IMG/VR virus record: IMGVR_UViG_3300010885_043172
Location: 1 to 38,161 of that record
From: a virus
Length of the DNA: 38,161 bases
Reading direction: 5' to 3' (one strand)
The translations under genes were made by a program, and so were the position numbers. Within the stretch, counting starts at the first letter, position 1, and each line of letters opens with the position of its first letter. Below are positions 10,982-36,398 of this stretch, one piece after another. The notes beneath the pieces were generated by a model. It ran no database searches, was not told the DNA's origin, and saw nothing but the letters and a program-made list of their open reading frames with translations.

Positions 10982-11019
10982 GACAGGTGTCCTTAGTTTA
11001 CGGACTAAGGACACCTGTC
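10982..11019 (+). promoter_or_regulatory. perfect 16-bp hairpin between uvsX and helicase gene
   Basis: GACAGGTGTCCTTAGT (10982-10997) and ACTAAGGACACCTGTC (11004-11019) are exact inverted complements around the 6-base loop TTACGG. No T-run follows, so it is not a standard terminator. A stem this long suits an RNase III site, an mRNA stabiliser or a protein operator; at the DNA level it could also be a binding site for a dimer. Confidence 0.7.
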
Positions 11020-11049: not shown

Positions 11050-12432
11050 ATGTCGATTGAACAGGTCATTTTCAATAACCTAATCAACAATGAAGACTAT
11101 GGCCGTAAGGTCATTCCCTTTATAAAAATAGAATATTTTCAGACTAAGAATGATCAGGTCATTTTTGAACTGATCAATAACTATGTCACATCATATAATG
11201 CTTTCCCGACTAAGGAAGTGTTGATGATTGACCTATCAAACTATATTGGTATTTCAGATGAACAGTTTACAGAATGTAAAGCTGCTATTGATGAAATTCC
11301 CAATCAGTCTGATGCTTTGTCCCAAGTCGATTGGCTTGTTGATCAGACAGAATCTTTCTGCCAAGATAAAGCTCTATATAATGCAATCACTAAGTCTATT
11401 GAAATTTTAGGCGATGCTTCAGGCAGTTTGTCAAAGGGTGTTATTCCTGACCTGTTGTCTTCTGCTCTTGCAGTTTCGTTTGATACATCAATTGGGCATG
11501 ACTTTTTATCAGACACTGATTCTCGTTTTGAATTTTATCATCGTAAAGAAGAACGCATTCCTTTTGATATTGAATATCTAAACAAGATTACCAAGGGCGG
11601 ATTGCCACGTAAAACGCTCAATGTTATTTTGGCTGGTACAGGTGTTGGTAAGTCATTGGCTATGTGTCATATGGCTTCTGCTAATCTGCTAGAAGGAAAA
11701 AATGTTCTTTATATCACTATGGAAATGGCTGAAGAAAAGATTGCAGAACGTATCGATGCTAACCTATTGAACATTCCACTTGATCAATTATATGATGTTC
11801 CAAAGGATTTATATGACAAAAAAATTAATCGCCTACGTGAAAAAACAGTTGGTAAGCTTATTATTAAGGAATATCCAACTGCATGTGCTGGTTCTGCGAA
11901 TTTCCGTCATCTTCTAAATGAACTAAAGATTAAGAGAAACTTCATTCCAGATATCATTTATATTGATTATCTCAATATCTGTAGTTCTTCGCGTATGAAG
12001 CAAGGCGCAGGAGTCAATTCATATACTTATATCAAGGCAATTGCTGAAGAGCTTCGTGGGTTGGCAGTAGAATTTAACGTACCTATTGTGACTGCTACTC
12101 AGACAACACGTGGTGGTTATGACAACAGCGATGTTGGATTGACTGATACTTCTGAATCATTTGGTCTACCAGCAACGGCAGACCTTATGTTTGCGTTGAT
12201 TGCAACAGATGAACTTAAACAGTTAAATCAGATCATGGTGAAGCAGTTGAAGAATCGTTATGCTGATCCTGAAATGTATAAGCGTTTTGTGATTGGTGTT
12301 GACAAATCACGTATGAAGCTGTATGATGCCGAACAATCTGCACAAGATGATCTTGTTAATGATACGGTTGCTCCTGATACAGCATTTGGACAAAAAGCAA
12401 GTAAGAAGCCATCATTTGATGATTTTAAGTAA
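11050..12432 (+). CDS. 41: replicative DNA helicase (T4 gp41-like, DnaB family)
   Basis: A 460-aa protein. Residues 1-150 are the helical N-terminal domain. The RecA-like motor holds Walker A GTGVGKS (196-202), LYITMEMAEEKIAERI, Walker B IIYIDYL (Asp306), TATQTTRGGYD and the arginine-finger region near KNRYADPEMYKRFVIG. It would be a hexameric 5'-3' helicase that unwinds ahead of the polymerase and carries the primase. The ATG follows AAGGAAAACTA. The C-terminus PSFDDFK is short and acidic/hydrophobic, as in partner-binding tails of phage replication proteins. Confidence 0.95.
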   Translation: MSIEQVIFNNLINNEDYGRKVIPFIKIEYFQTKNDQVIFELINNYVTSYNAFPTKEVLMIDLSNYIGISDEQFTECKAAIDEIPNQSDALSQVDWLVDQTESFCQDKALYNAITKSIEILGDASGSLSKGVIPDLLSSALAVSFDTSIGHDFLSDTDSRFEFYHRKEERIPFDIEYLNKITKGGLPRKTLNVILAGTGVGKSLAMCHMASANLLEGKNVLYITMEMAEEKIAERIDANLLNIPLDQLYDVPKDLYDKKINRLREKTVGKLIIKEYPTACAGSANFRHLLNELKIKRNFIPDIIYIDYLNICSSSRMKQGAGVNSYTYIKAIAEELRGLAVEFNVPIVTATQTTRGGYDNSDVGLTDTSESFGLPATADLMFALIATDELKQLNQIMVKQLKNRYADPEMYKRFVIGVDKSRMKLYDAEQSAQDDLVNDTVAPDTAFGQKASKKPSFDDFK

Positions 12433-12444
12433 AGGGGCAGTCGT

Positions 12445-12654
12445 ATGAATTATAAATTAGTTGATTGTAAACAAGAAGTTTTTGAAGGAGACTTCATGTT
12501 TAGCGTATATGATTTGATTGAAACTACTACAGGATTGTTGATCAAGTCTTCCTTAAAAAAAGAAGAAGCCAAAATCCTTTTGCGCCATCTTAATATGGGC
12601 GGCGGGTTTGATGGATTTACCCCTGCATTTTTTTGCAATTTAATTAAAAACTAA
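12445..12654 (+). CDS. hypothetical small protein
   Basis: A 69-aa protein, MNYKLVDCKQEVFEGDFMFS and onward, with a mixed strand/helix pattern and the segment KKEEAKILLRHLNMGGGFDGFTPAFF. The ATG follows AAAGGGGCAGTCGT. It sits between the helicase and the Sm-like small protein in the same transcript. Similar small proteins occur in T4-like phages as far as I recall. Function unknown. Confidence 0.65.
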   Translation: MNYKLVDCKQEVFEGDFMFSVYDLIETTTGLLIKSSLKKEEAKILLRHLNMGGGFDGFTPAFFCNLIKN

Positions 12655-12666
12655 AAAGGAAATATT

Positions 12667-12960
12667 ATGTTAATTGAAATTCCATATAAGACGGGCGATA
12701 CAGTTTCTGTGAAGCTTATTTCTGGTGAAGAAGTTGTTGGTCGTATTGGTGAACCAACTCAAGATGCTGTTATTCTCACAAAGCCAATGACATTTATCAT
12801 GGGTCCACAGGGTCTTGGTATGGTCCCGTACATGTTCTCTGCTCCACAGGATGCAAAGATCAAAATTAAGGACAGTGCTATTGTTGCTATCGTCAAGACT
12901 GATGATCAGGTCAACAAGCAGTACATTGCACAGACAACTGGTCTAACTCTAGCTTCGTAA
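12667..12960 (+). CDS. small beta-rich protein, Sm/LSm-like fold possible
   Basis: A 97-aa protein: KTGDTVSVKLISGEEVVGRI, then DAVILTKPMTF, GMVPYMFSA and KIKIKDSAIVAIVKTD. The order of short strands, with KLISGEEVVGRI corresponding to an Sm1-like hairpin and AIVAIVK to a closing strand, looks like an Sm/Hfq-type small barrel. This is read from pattern only. Such proteins often bind RNA, which is notable beside several mRNA hairpins. The ATG follows AAAAGGAAATATT. Its end lies 6 bases before the inverted repeat at 12967. Confidence 0.6.
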   Translation: MLIEIPYKTGDTVSVKLISGEEVVGRIGEPTQDAVILTKPMTFIMGPQGLGMVPYMFSAPQDAKIKIKDSAIVAIVKTDDQVNKQYIAQTTGLTLAS

Positions 12961-12966
12961 AAAAAC

Positions 12967-13028
12967 TATTGACAGTTCCTTTCGAATCACTTATAACGGG
13001 TTCAACAAAACGGAAGGAACTGTCAATG
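12967..13028 (+). promoter_or_regulatory. inverted repeat able to sequester the next start site
   Basis: Bases 12967-12984 pair with 13011-13028 over 18 bp (two G-U pairs, otherwise Watson-Crick) around a 26-base loop. The right arm contains the ribosome binding site GGAAGGAAC and the ATG of the gene at 13026; the left arm contains the -35 box of the promoter at 12969. Transcripts reading in from upstream would hide the start site; transcripts from the internal promoter would lack the left arm and be open. Confidence 0.75.
12969..12997 (+). promoter_or_regulatory. sigma70-type promoter inside an inverted repeat
   Basis: TTGACA (12969-12974), a 17-bp spacer and TATAAC (12992-12997) form one of the strongest promoter matches in the window. 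The start point should fall near 13004, leaving a leader of about 22 bases before the ATG at 13026. The -35 hexamer is part of the left arm of the inverted repeat, so the DNA palindrome might also be an operator. Confidence 0.8.
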
Positions 13029-13292
13029 ACCGTAGAAATTAGCACCGCCGATTGTGATTTTATCAAAGCAAACCGTGCACTTTATATTGGTGCTGAAATG
13101 ATTAACAGCCGTGGATTTCCCAAGGAACTATTGGTTAGGTCTGCTGATACTGGTCGGGCTGTGCATTTCACTCCTATTCGTGAAGGGCATCCTCGTTTTG
13201 ATTATGATTTCTGGGACGGCGAGATGGCCATTTATGAGCCTGATACCGCTCTTCGTAATGTGGACATTCTGGTTATTAGTTATGGCATGTAA
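13026..13292 (+). CDS. hypothetical protein under hairpin/promoter control
   Basis: An 88-aa protein, MTVEISTADCDFIKANRALY and onward, with predicted beta strands (LLVRSADTGRAVHFTPI) and DFWDGEMAIYEPD. ATG 13026 is chosen because GGAAGGAAC lies 8 bases upstream; a TTG at 12969 falls on the promoter. Not recognised. Its end overlaps the deaminase gene by 11 bases, so the two are translated together. The elaborate control upstream suggests timing or dose matters. Confidence 0.65.
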   Translation: MTVEISTADCDFIKANRALYIGAEMINSRGFPKELLVRSADTGRAVHFTPIREGHPRFDYDFWDGEMAIYEPDTALRNVDILVISYGM

Positions 13293-13692
13293 GAAGTACT
13301 TCAAAGTACTACAGAAAGTGGCTGAAGCCGTGGAGCCTGTGTCTAGAAGTAGACAGAGGCTTTCGGCATGTTTGGTTTATAAGAATGAAATTATTGGGAT
13401 GGGCTTCAACAAAAAGAAGTCACACCCCTTTCAGCGTAAATTTGCTAAACATGAAGAAGCTATCTATCTTCATGCTGAGATTGATGCTATTAAAAATGCG
13501 TTGAAAGTTGTTGATGCTGATACTATCAGCAAGAGCACCCTGTATATTATGCGGGTAAAGTTTGAAGACACAAATGCAAAGAAGTTTGTGCGTGGACTAT
13601 CCAAGCCCTGTGAAGGGTGTGAACGAGCCATCGCACAGTTTGGAATTAAAAAAGTTTATTACACAACAGAAGAAGGATTTGATTATTTATGA
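13282..13692 (+). CDS. dCMP/CMP deaminase-like zinc protein
   Basis: A 136-aa protein with the cytidine/deoxycytidylate deaminase core: RLSACLVYKNEIIGMGFN, the HAE zinc/proton-shuttle motif (His64, Glu66) and PCEGC (Cys110, Cys113). Family members turn dCMP to dUMP for thymidylate supply, or act on other bases. It is shorter than T4 Cd (193 aa) and lacks the extra allosteric region, so its exact substrate is uncertain. ATG 13282 (in GTTATGGCATG) lies within the end of the preceding gene; no strong ribosome binding site, so coupled translation is likely. The next gene overlaps its end by 4 bases. Confidence 0.8.
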   Translation: MACKKYFKVLQKVAEAVEPVSRSRQRLSACLVYKNEIIGMGFNKKKSHPFQRKFAKHEEAIYLHAEIDAIKNALKVVDADTISKSTLYIMRVKFEDTNAKKFVRGLSKPCEGCERAIAQFGIKKVYYTTEEGFDYL

Positions 13693-14291
13693 GTAAAACA
13701 AATAAAACGGTTCCAGTAGAAGAAATTCAAAAAAGAATTTCATACAATAATGGCAATTTATATTGGAAATATCGTGAGGATATGTCTGAAAAATGGAATG
13801 CCAGATTTTCTGGGAAAAAAATTAAAACATTTATGACAAATGGATATGTTAGATTTTGTATAAATTATAATGGCAAGCAGTTTAAATTGAGAGGTCATAT
13901 TGTATCTTGGATAATTTTTAATAATAAGTATCCCGAAAAATGTTTAGATCATATTAATAAGATAAGATCAGATAATCGTATTGAAAATTTAAGACCAGCA
14001 AATTATTATCAAAATGTTTTAAATACATCACCGAATGATAATAAGTCAAGTCAATATAAAGGCGTGTTTTGGTCAAAAAACAAATGGCGCACGGTTTTAA
14101 GAATTGGAGGCACAAAATTTCATTGTGGATATTTTAATGATGAATTGGAAGCAGCACTTTCTTATAATAAAAATGCTGAAGAAAAACATGATACAGAATA
14201 TGCCTACATGAACGATATAAGTAACGGTTACACCAATAAGGAATATCCTAATATGCCTAGACATTGGACACCAGAAGAAATGTCCGCTTAA
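13689..14291 (+). CDS. HNH homing endonuclease with AP2 domain
   Basis: A 200-aa protein. The N-terminal half has an HNH_3-type nuclease motif: LRGHIVSWIIFNNKYPE (His about 74), CLDHINKIRSDNRIENLRP (the central His-Asn and final Asn/Arg). The C-terminal half, from SSQYKGVFWSKNKWRTVLRI to AALSYN, matches an AP2 DNA-binding domain. This two-part design is typical of free-standing phage homing endonucleases that copy themselves into related genomes. It is slightly more AT-rich than neighbours and sits between nucleotide metabolism and the sugar cluster, marking a possible boundary of inserted DNA. ATGA overlap with the deaminase gene. Confidence 0.88.
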   Translation: MSKTNKTVPVEEIQKRISYNNGNLYWKYREDMSEKWNARFSGKKIKTFMTNGYVRFCINYNGKQFKLRGHIVSWIIFNNKYPEKCLDHINKIRSDNRIENLRPANYYQNVLNTSPNDNKSSQYKGVFWSKNKWRTVLRIGGTKFHCGYFNDELEAALSYNKNAEEKHDTEYAYMNDISNGYTNKEYPNMPRHWTPEEMSA

Positions 14292-14301
14292 AGGTTTGAT
14301 A

Positions 14302-14343
14302 TATACAAGGCACATATTGAAAAGTGCCTTGTATAATTTTGTT
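14302..14343 (+). terminator. hairpin with T-rich tail, probable terminator
   Basis: TATACAAGGCAC (14302-14313) pairs perfectly over 12 bp with GTGCCTTGTATA (14324-14335) around a 10-base loop, followed by ATTTTGTTT. It separates the homing endonuclease from the sugar cluster. The tail is interrupted by a G, so termination may be partial. Confidence 0.6.
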
Positions 14344-14355
14344 TGAGGAATGATT

Positions 14356-15258
14356 ATGAAAAGTATTGTAACTGGTGGTGCTGGTTTTATTGGCTCACAC
14401 TTAGTGGATAAATTGATTGATATTGGCCATGAGGTTATTGTCATTGACAACGAAACTGCTACTTGCCACGATCATTTTTATTATAATGATCGTGCTTCAT
14501 ACTATAAGTATGATATTGCCGATTATGATTCAGTTCGTTCACTTTTTGATAATGTAGACTATGTGTTTCATCTTGCCGCTGAATCGCGCATTCAGCCATC
14601 CATCGATAACCCCCTACTTTGCTTTAGAACTAATGCACTAGGAACATCAGTTGTTCTTCAGTGTTCCCGTGAGTCTGGCGTTAAGAGGGTTATGTATTCT
14701 TCTACTTCATCTGCATATGGTAAAAATACTCCACCACTTGTAGAAACTATGACTGAGGATTGCCTAAACCCATATTCAGTTGCAAAGGTTGCAGGTGAAA
14801 AAATGTGTAAGATGTATTCTGATCTATTTGGTCTTGAAACTATCGTCTTTCGCTACTTCAATGTATATGGCGTTCGTGAACCTCTTAAGGGCGAATATGC
14901 ACCAGTGATTGGTTTGTTTATACGCAAACATCAAGCTAATCAATCGCTCACAATTGTTGGTGATGGTGAACAGCGCCGTGACTTTACTCATGTTGATGAT
15001 ATTGTTCAAGCCAATATAAATGCTATGAATTTTATTGCAGAGGAAGGTAATAATTATTTTGGCACTGTATTTAATGTAGGCACTGGAACCAATCATTCTG
15101 TCAATCAAATTGCTGCTCTTATTTCTGACAATGTAGAATTTATTCCGCCTCGTGTCGGTGAAGCTCGTGAAACCAAGGCAAATAATGACAAAATCAGAAG
15201 TGTACTTAACTGGTCGCCCACCAAGAACATCGAAGATTATATTAAGGAACAGCTATGA
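14356..15258 (+). CDS. NAD-dependent sugar epimerase/dehydratase
   Basis: A 300-aa extended short-chain dehydrogenase. GGAGFIG (residues 7-13) binds NAD, FHLAAE follows, SSTSSAYG gives the catalytic Ser/Thr and YSVAK (Tyr140, Lys144) the catalytic pair. RYFNVYG and RDFTHVDDI are typical of UDP-glucose/UDP-GlcNAc 4-epimerases and NDP-sugar dehydratases. It would act on a nucleotide sugar in the cytoplasm as an early step of the glycan pathway. ATG 14356 has GAGGA 6 bases upstream, whereas ATG 14350 touches it. The next gene overlaps by 4 bases. 4-epimerase is the best guess; exact substrate unknown. Confidence 0.88.
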   Translation: MKSIVTGGAGFIGSHLVDKLIDIGHEVIVIDNETATCHDHFYYNDRASYYKYDIADYDSVRSLFDNVDYVFHLAAESRIQPSIDNPLLCFRTNALGTSVVLQCSRESGVKRVMYSSTSSAYGKNTPPLVETMTEDCLNPYSVAKVAGEKMCKMYSDLFGLETIVFRYFNVYGVREPLKGEYAPVIGLFIRKHQANQSLTIVGDGEQRRDFTHVDDIVQANINAMNFIAEEGNNYFGTVFNVGTGTNHSVNQIAALISDNVEFIPPRVGEARETKANNDKIRSVLNWSPTKNIEDYIKEQL

Positions 15259-36369: not shown

Positions 36370-36398
36370 TTGACCCCATATATTCATATGGTTATAAT
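36370..36398 (+). promoter_or_regulatory. sigma70-type promoter
   Basis: TTGACC (36370-36375), a 17-bp spacer and TATAAT (36393-36398) just after the lysis cassette and 54 bases before the primase start. It restarts early-type transcription after the late block. The leader then has GATTC/GAATC pairing around an AT-rich loop near 36409-36427. Confidence 0.8.

Follow-up and report, generated by a model that had tools for sequence, protein, structure and literature searches.

We propose that the hairpin at positions 12967-13028 is a translation-insulating promoter, in which the sigma70-like promoter of a small phage gene forms the 5′ arm and the ribosome site and start codon of the same gene form the 3′ arm, tying expression of the gene to that promoter, a reading that we consider probable. 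RNA arriving from the helicase operon would contain both arms and would fold, blocking the start of an 88-aa open reading frame (ORF) and, through translational coupling, silencing the deaminase gene behind it as well. RNA started at about position 13004 would lack the 5′ arm and would be translated, and the 88-aa gene would follow only its own early-type promoter and ignore transcription from upstream, leaving this gene and the deaminase gene uncoupled from the upstream operon. The likely purpose would be to restrict the product to early infection, as a mirror image of the arrangement at e and soc of T4: if, as in T4, sigma70-type promoters are early and then shut off while the operons are still read, the product would be early only. 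The model draws on the anatomy of the site, its conservation, its recurrence with arms that differ between genes and match within them, and a predicted difference in accessibility, all of which can be read from the sequences. From these we infer that the promoter fires, that its RNA starts where predicted and that read-through RNA exists and is silent; early timing and an effect on the deaminase would follow.

Anatomy and predicted folding of the promoter-hairpin

The window, by which we mean the whole stretch of DNA analysed, is a virus record of 38,161 bases and, judged from its helicase, UvsX, family B polymerase and primase genes, is a fragment of a T4-like phage. On its plus strand the left arm of the hairpin (TATTGACAGTTCCTTTCG, 12967-12984) contains the −35 box TTGACA (12969-12974), which is followed after a 17-nt spacer by the −10 box TATAAC (12992-12997) in the loop, giving a promoter that scores 11 of 12 consensus letters. 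The right arm (CGGAAGGAACTGTCAATG, 13011-13028) contains the Shine-Dalgarno sequence AAGGA (13014-13018), paired with 12977-12981, and the ATG of the 88-aa ORF (13026-13028). The stem found by our search has 18 base pairs, 16 of them Watson-Crick and two G-U wobbles (T12967-G13028 and T12982-G13013), so that the 18-bp inverted repeat described in the sequence-only reading, with the −35 box in one arm and the ribosome site and ATG in the other, is borne out. The predicted transcription start, an A at 13004 placed by its spacing from the −10 box, sits in the 26-nt loop between the arms, and RNA begun there would therefore be without the left arm. This RNA would open with the leader CAACAAAACGGAAGGA (13003-13018), the local form of a leader, CA[AT]CAAGACG..AAGGA, that a leader search finds across the clade. 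Inspection of the hairpin sequence revealed no late-type promoter (TATAAATA), and a search of Rfam returned nothing above the gathering score, the only hit being XIST_intron at 24.7 bits against a gathering score of 70.

The hairpin sits 3′ of a DnaB/gp41-like helicase gene (11050-12432, plus strand), identified by homology search, and two small genes. The nearer upstream gene, assigned to phrog_527 (12667-12960, plus strand), ends in a stop codon that lies 6 nt short of the stem. A ribosome that terminates there, at 12960, could open only the lowest pairs of the stem, the Shine-Dalgarno sequence being paired deeper, given the ribosome footprint that we assume. We found no terminator-like site on the plus strand from 7562 to the hairpin, and read-through from the helicase side is therefore expected. 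The last 11 nt of the 88-aa ORF (13026-13292, plus strand) are shared with a dCMP deaminase-like gene (13282-13692, plus strand; searched from 13279), an overlap consistent with translational coupling from the ORF to the deaminase. The ORF has no Pfam match, and its best PHROG match (E = 0.11) is not significant. Against phage records, tblastn with the ORF and megablast with positions 12000-14500 gave no match, blastn with 70 nt gave short chance matches only, and a scan of genome contigs found no relative of the ORF; the homologues that we did gather, five close and one distant, are described below. Elsewhere in the window, a 17-pair hairpin without a T run lies between uvsX and the helicase gene (10982-11019), scoring about as stable as the one at 12967-13028 and with no promoter found inside it, and a promoter-like TTGACC-17-TATAAT at 36370-36398 contains a short palindrome, CCATATATTCATATGG, entirely within its spacer.

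The predicted folds agree with the earlier claim that long RNA would fold and hide the start while short RNA would stay open. In the long transcript, taken from 30 nt before the −35 box, the ribosome site and AUG are predicted to be paired, and opening them is predicted to cost 18.8 kcal/mol, against 4.1 kcal/mol in the short RNA, with 40 nt of the gene included. The 111-nt RNA around the hairpin, which has both arms, folds with a z-score of −2.77, and the short RNA from 13004 to 13065 folds no better than its own shuffles (z = 0.95). Indeed, the long RNA was predicted to be the costlier one to open in all 27 promoter-hairpins for which the calculation was made, those of T4 described below included.

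With G-U pairs allowed and a span below 110 nt, the 18-bp stem is the longest unbroken stem in the 38-kb window. Its length alone is only moderately surprising, as 4 of 200 dinucleotide-shuffled windows also contained an unbroken stem of at least 18 pairs with a span of up to about 70 nt; the striking part is the coincidence of the stem with a promoter and a start codon. Within the window a stem is present at one of nine promoter-bearing gene starts and at none of 71 others, which alone is not significant (p = 0.11), and it is recurrence in relatives that, by sequence comparison, settles the reality of the coincidence.

Conservation and recurrence in related phages

Relatives of the locus were gathered through the upstream gene (24 loci) and through the 88-aa ORF (6 loci). 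The ORF, the start of the deaminase gene and the promoter-hairpin occur together in five other contigs (L001/L027, L002/L030, L003/L031, L029/L032 and L004), and all six close sequences, the window among them, keep TTGACA, a 17-nt spacer, TATA[AG]C and 16 to 18 of the 18 pairs. The arms are thus conserved as a pair, as the sequence-only reading had proposed, mostly by identity and without any double change: two stem pairs vary between C-G and T-G with pairing kept, a third alternates between T-A and T-G and is mismatched (C-A) in L004, and in the L003 contig the two outermost pairs are lost and an extra base precedes the ATG. The left arm of L004 fits the right arm of the window better than its own right arm. 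Since the arms hardly vary, covariation is silent at this locus, and the check that had been suggested on this basis succeeds elsewhere, at two sister hairpins and at regB of T4. Two of the contigs, L032 and L004, have an HNH endonuclease gene, so labelled from sequence reading and from a homologous gene family in the window, between the phrog_527 gene and the hairpin, which argues that the hairpin stays with the ORF and not with its neighbour. HNH genes flank the ORF/deaminase pair on either side, downstream in the window (13689-14291) and upstream of the hairpin in L032 and L004, suggesting a hot spot of mobile endonucleases. The distant homologue of the ORF (47%, L033) has a TTGACA about 60 nt upstream and no stem.

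The longer relative contigs were scanned for gene starts with a ribosome site and a promoter matching 10 or more of the 12 consensus letters whose predicted start lies 8-60 nt upstream, and a stem was sought between the promoter region and the ribosome site; the thresholds and weights were our own choice and the gene starts were called mechanically. A first pass over the window and G001-G003 found a stem at 11 of 45 promoter starts and at 2 of 396 starts without a promoter. A second pass, with G007 and G008 added and a lower ORF cut-off, found one at 19 of 80 promoter starts against 3 of 675 others (Fisher p ~4e-17, a value that is overstated, as homologous hairpins in different contigs were counted separately and the independent cases are fewer). 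The remaining 61 promoter starts in the clade have no stem. Of the 19 stems, one (L265, +17995) has a weak promoter and looks like chance.

The hairpin of the 88-aa ORF appears from these sequences to be no one-off, its gene being one of about eight families in the clade that carry such a hairpin: the 88-aa ORF itself, a family that we take to be SprT-like from its HELAHTNGH-type motif, and the families MxKTxKK, MTKLIAI, FKFYSD, MAFAPH, MTVND and MTKRIINV. Two layouts are present. The left arm covers the −35 box and spacer in the 88-aa ORF, MTKLIAI, MAFAPH, MTKRIINV and MxKTxKK families, and the spacer and −10 box in the SprT, FKFYSD and MTVND families. Arm sequences differ between the families, and left arms are matched to the ribosome site of their own gene; when right arms were swapped between different genes, only 41 of 6242 swaps reached the threshold score of 24. 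Furthermore, double compensatory changes occur in MAFAPH (C-G / T-A) and FKFYSD (T-A / A-T), the remaining families of the clade having one-sided or broken pairs or being invariant. One MAFAPH hairpin lies 3′ of a tRNA-Ser gene. The pattern TTGACA..TATA..TGTCAATG occurs in at least 119 stretches, nearly all of those listed being without an extended stem. One independent case, seen in both L108 (5424-5487 in minus-strand coordinates) and L133 (8686-8749), precedes an ORF starting MSMHLEGP and has TTGACA / TATAAT and a stem of about 19 pairs extending to the start codon. The pattern TTGACAGTT..AACTGTCAA was also tried and set aside, its 19 stretches being chance-like or simple repeats apart from the contigs with the 88-aa ORF.

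These comparisons bear on what else the inverted repeat might be. Operators are often inverted repeats flanking promoters, and the near-invariance of the arms at the 88-aa ORF locus would suit a dimeric repressor or activator bound as DNA to both arms around the −10 box. The arms of the sister hairpins are, however, quite different from one another, which excludes an operator shared among them, and the right arm always lies on the ribosome site while the left arm covers the −35 box and spacer in some and the −10 box in others, leaving the operator only a small chance of being correct. A different role in RNA has a slim one: the stem might be a translational operator bound by a protein, in the way that the T4 polymerase, gp43, binds a hairpin near its own start (PMC3014915), or a site for RNase III or other processing, or a protection of the mRNA, with blocking of the start incidental. 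Here too the unrelated arm sequences offer no common binding site; moreover, transcripts from the gene's own promoter do not have the left arm, which would leave read-through RNA as the only target of a regulatory protein or processing enzyme acting on the stem.

It is scarcely credible that the stem is a by-product of the partial complementarity between −35 boxes and ribosome sites (TTGACA with TGTCAA, TCCTT with AAGGA), aided by chance or by local palindrome-forming mutation. Stems of 18 pairs do turn up somewhere in a few shuffled windows, and one swap between two hairpins with similar motifs scored 31.5. The swap test, in which so few foreign arms reach the threshold, nevertheless largely refutes this explanation, and the excess of stems at promoter starts speaks against it; moreover, the stems extend well into the promoter spacers, and promoters with the same leader exist elsewhere without a stem. 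Finally, an intrinsic terminator or attenuator of the upstream operon has next to no chance of being the function of this stable hairpin, for although it stands directly 3′ of the upstream gene, no T run follows the stem, the site is not among the predicted terminators and an open frame begins within the stem.

Leader class and upstream terminators

Many of the promoters with a hairpin share the leader CA[AT]CAA[GA]ACG..AAGGA 3′ of the start. In the contigs of the clade a search for the leader found it at 22 places, a promoter being present at 18 (at the four dropped, the promoter is absent or has only 8 letters), and 12 of the 18 have the hairpin. The stricter pattern TCA[AT]CAAGACG behind TTGACA, which cannot match the leader of the 88-aa ORF itself, was found across all viral contigs in 27 stretches representing 22 distinct promoters, and only one of the 22 has the stem, which argues that the hairpin is an added feature of some promoters and no by-product of the class. 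The stretches (L343-L369), in which this leader follows promoters with TTGACA and a −10 box, come from many apparently unrelated viral contigs, and in L350 the leader stands before a tRNA-like gene.

An intrinsic terminator lies within 110 nt upstream of none of 19 promoters with a hairpin and of three of six leader-class promoters without one (p = 0.009), the three cases not being independent, as one terminator sequence is common to them all. A fourth promoter of the terminator type, with a different terminator, was found in another contig (L349). The 19 hairpin promoters of this comparison differ slightly from those of the scan: a MAFAPH promoter of 9 letters and a FKFYSD stem scoring 23.5 were added, and one chance-like and one duplicate-type case were omitted. 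For 16 of the 19, the promoter begins near the end of a co-directional open frame, at most 4 nt ahead of it or 20 nt past it. In four contigs the SprT gene is preceded by the hairpin; a fifth, L186, has the same leader but a terminator-promoter module where the hairpin would be, an alternation that would be expected if hairpin and terminator both shield the gene from upstream transcription.

Early promoters in T4 and comparison with known systems

Outside the clade, the scan covered between 80,000 and 180,000 bases per record, in some cases less than the full record. In these spans a stem was found at one of 36 promoter starts in G010, one of 12 in G013 and one of 14 in phiM12, and at none in G011 (0 of 25), G014 (0 of 18), DLP6 (0 of 14), Cr30 (0 of 8) and P-TIM68 (0 of 18). 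The cases of G010 and G013 belong to one promoter-hairpin, TTGACA-16-TATAAT with arms ATTCCTTTTCCC / GGGAAAAGGAAT, that stands before four different genes (L203, L206, L221 and L222); its upstream neighbour appears to be the same gene in each. In T4 a stem is present at three of 25 promoter starts, against three of 241 starts without a promoter, and the three genes are regB, alt.-3 and alc (L298, T4 60001-80000, and L301, T4 120001-140000, both on the minus strand). The hairpins of alt.-3 and alc are nearly identical and precede different genes. At regB, Mosigvirus, represented by five Mosigvirus-like records, keeps a perfect stem of 14 pairs made of other letters, and comparison with T4, with a gap placed by eye, gives two double changes and, in addition, one pair missing from both arms. 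The alc stem is kept in a diverged Tequatrovirus and absent from Mosigvirus p000y. The regB promoter is described as a typical early promoter in PMC3014915, and the part of that paper used here makes no mention of its hairpin. The sequence-only reading had contrasted the late promoters of T4 with the early-type promoter of the window; this holds for e, soc and 49 against TTGACA-17-TATAAC, but T4 as a whole does not fit it, having hairpins of the early type at regB, alc and alt.-3.

On this evidence we put at about even the prospect that early promoters inside ribosome-site hairpins are a general early-only gate of T4-type phages, which would have arisen repeatedly, in two layouts and with arms of different sequence, would be interchangeable with an upstream terminator and placeable before different genes, and would guard early functions such as regB and alc of T4 from later read-through RNA. 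If this is true, it would show how early genes can stay silent on later RNA in a compact genome whose genes run in one direction and have few terminators: the promoter would itself encode what silences RNA reading across it. A translational gate built into early genes would add a further testable layer to early shut-off, and the arrangement would offer a compact design for insulated expression cassettes. As regB and alc of T4 carry the same arrangement, the idea is testable at once in a laboratory phage.

A related logic operates in the insertion sequences IS10, IS50 and IS200, where RNA from outside folds back and hides the start of the transposase gene and RNA from the element itself does not; there the arms are the transposon ends, and no phage operon is involved. 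Among the closest known parallels are the T4 genes e, soc, 49 and I-TevI, where long transcripts form hairpins over the ribosome site and a late promoter lies at the 5′ arm (PMC3014915 and PMC2988022). As in our model, the long RNA folds and is silent, and the RNA of the inner promoter is without the 5′ arm and is translated. The two differ in that the inner promoter of these T4 genes is late (TATAAATA) and silences early RNA, whereas the promoter in the window is sigma70-like with TTGACA and would silence RNA from outside, presumably later RNA. The hairpins at regB, alc and alt.-3 have early-type promoters, as in the window. Their promoters, TTTAC[AT]-17-TATA[AG]T, likewise put the left arm in the spacer and the right arm on the ribosome site, although the arms and the −35 box are different and the leader is not shared. 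In Bacillus subtilis, a hairpin of at least 20 pairs has been proposed to block translation of sigG from spoIIG read-through RNA (PMC5942855), and, as here, transcripts begun at the promoter of the gene itself are unable to form it; sigG differs in being a single case, a cellular gene whose promoter is read by sigma-F and sigma-G. In the open-licence literature searched, to the extent that its text was available, we found no description of a phage hairpin that contains an early promoter in this way. The logic is thus a known one, from T4 e, soc, 49 and I-TevI with their late promoters and from sigG, and what is new, as far as that literature goes, is that a phage uses an early-type promoter as the 5′ arm, that one clade does so repeatedly with unrelated arms, that the hairpin alternates with terminators and that regB, alc and alt.-3 of T4 are arranged in the same way.
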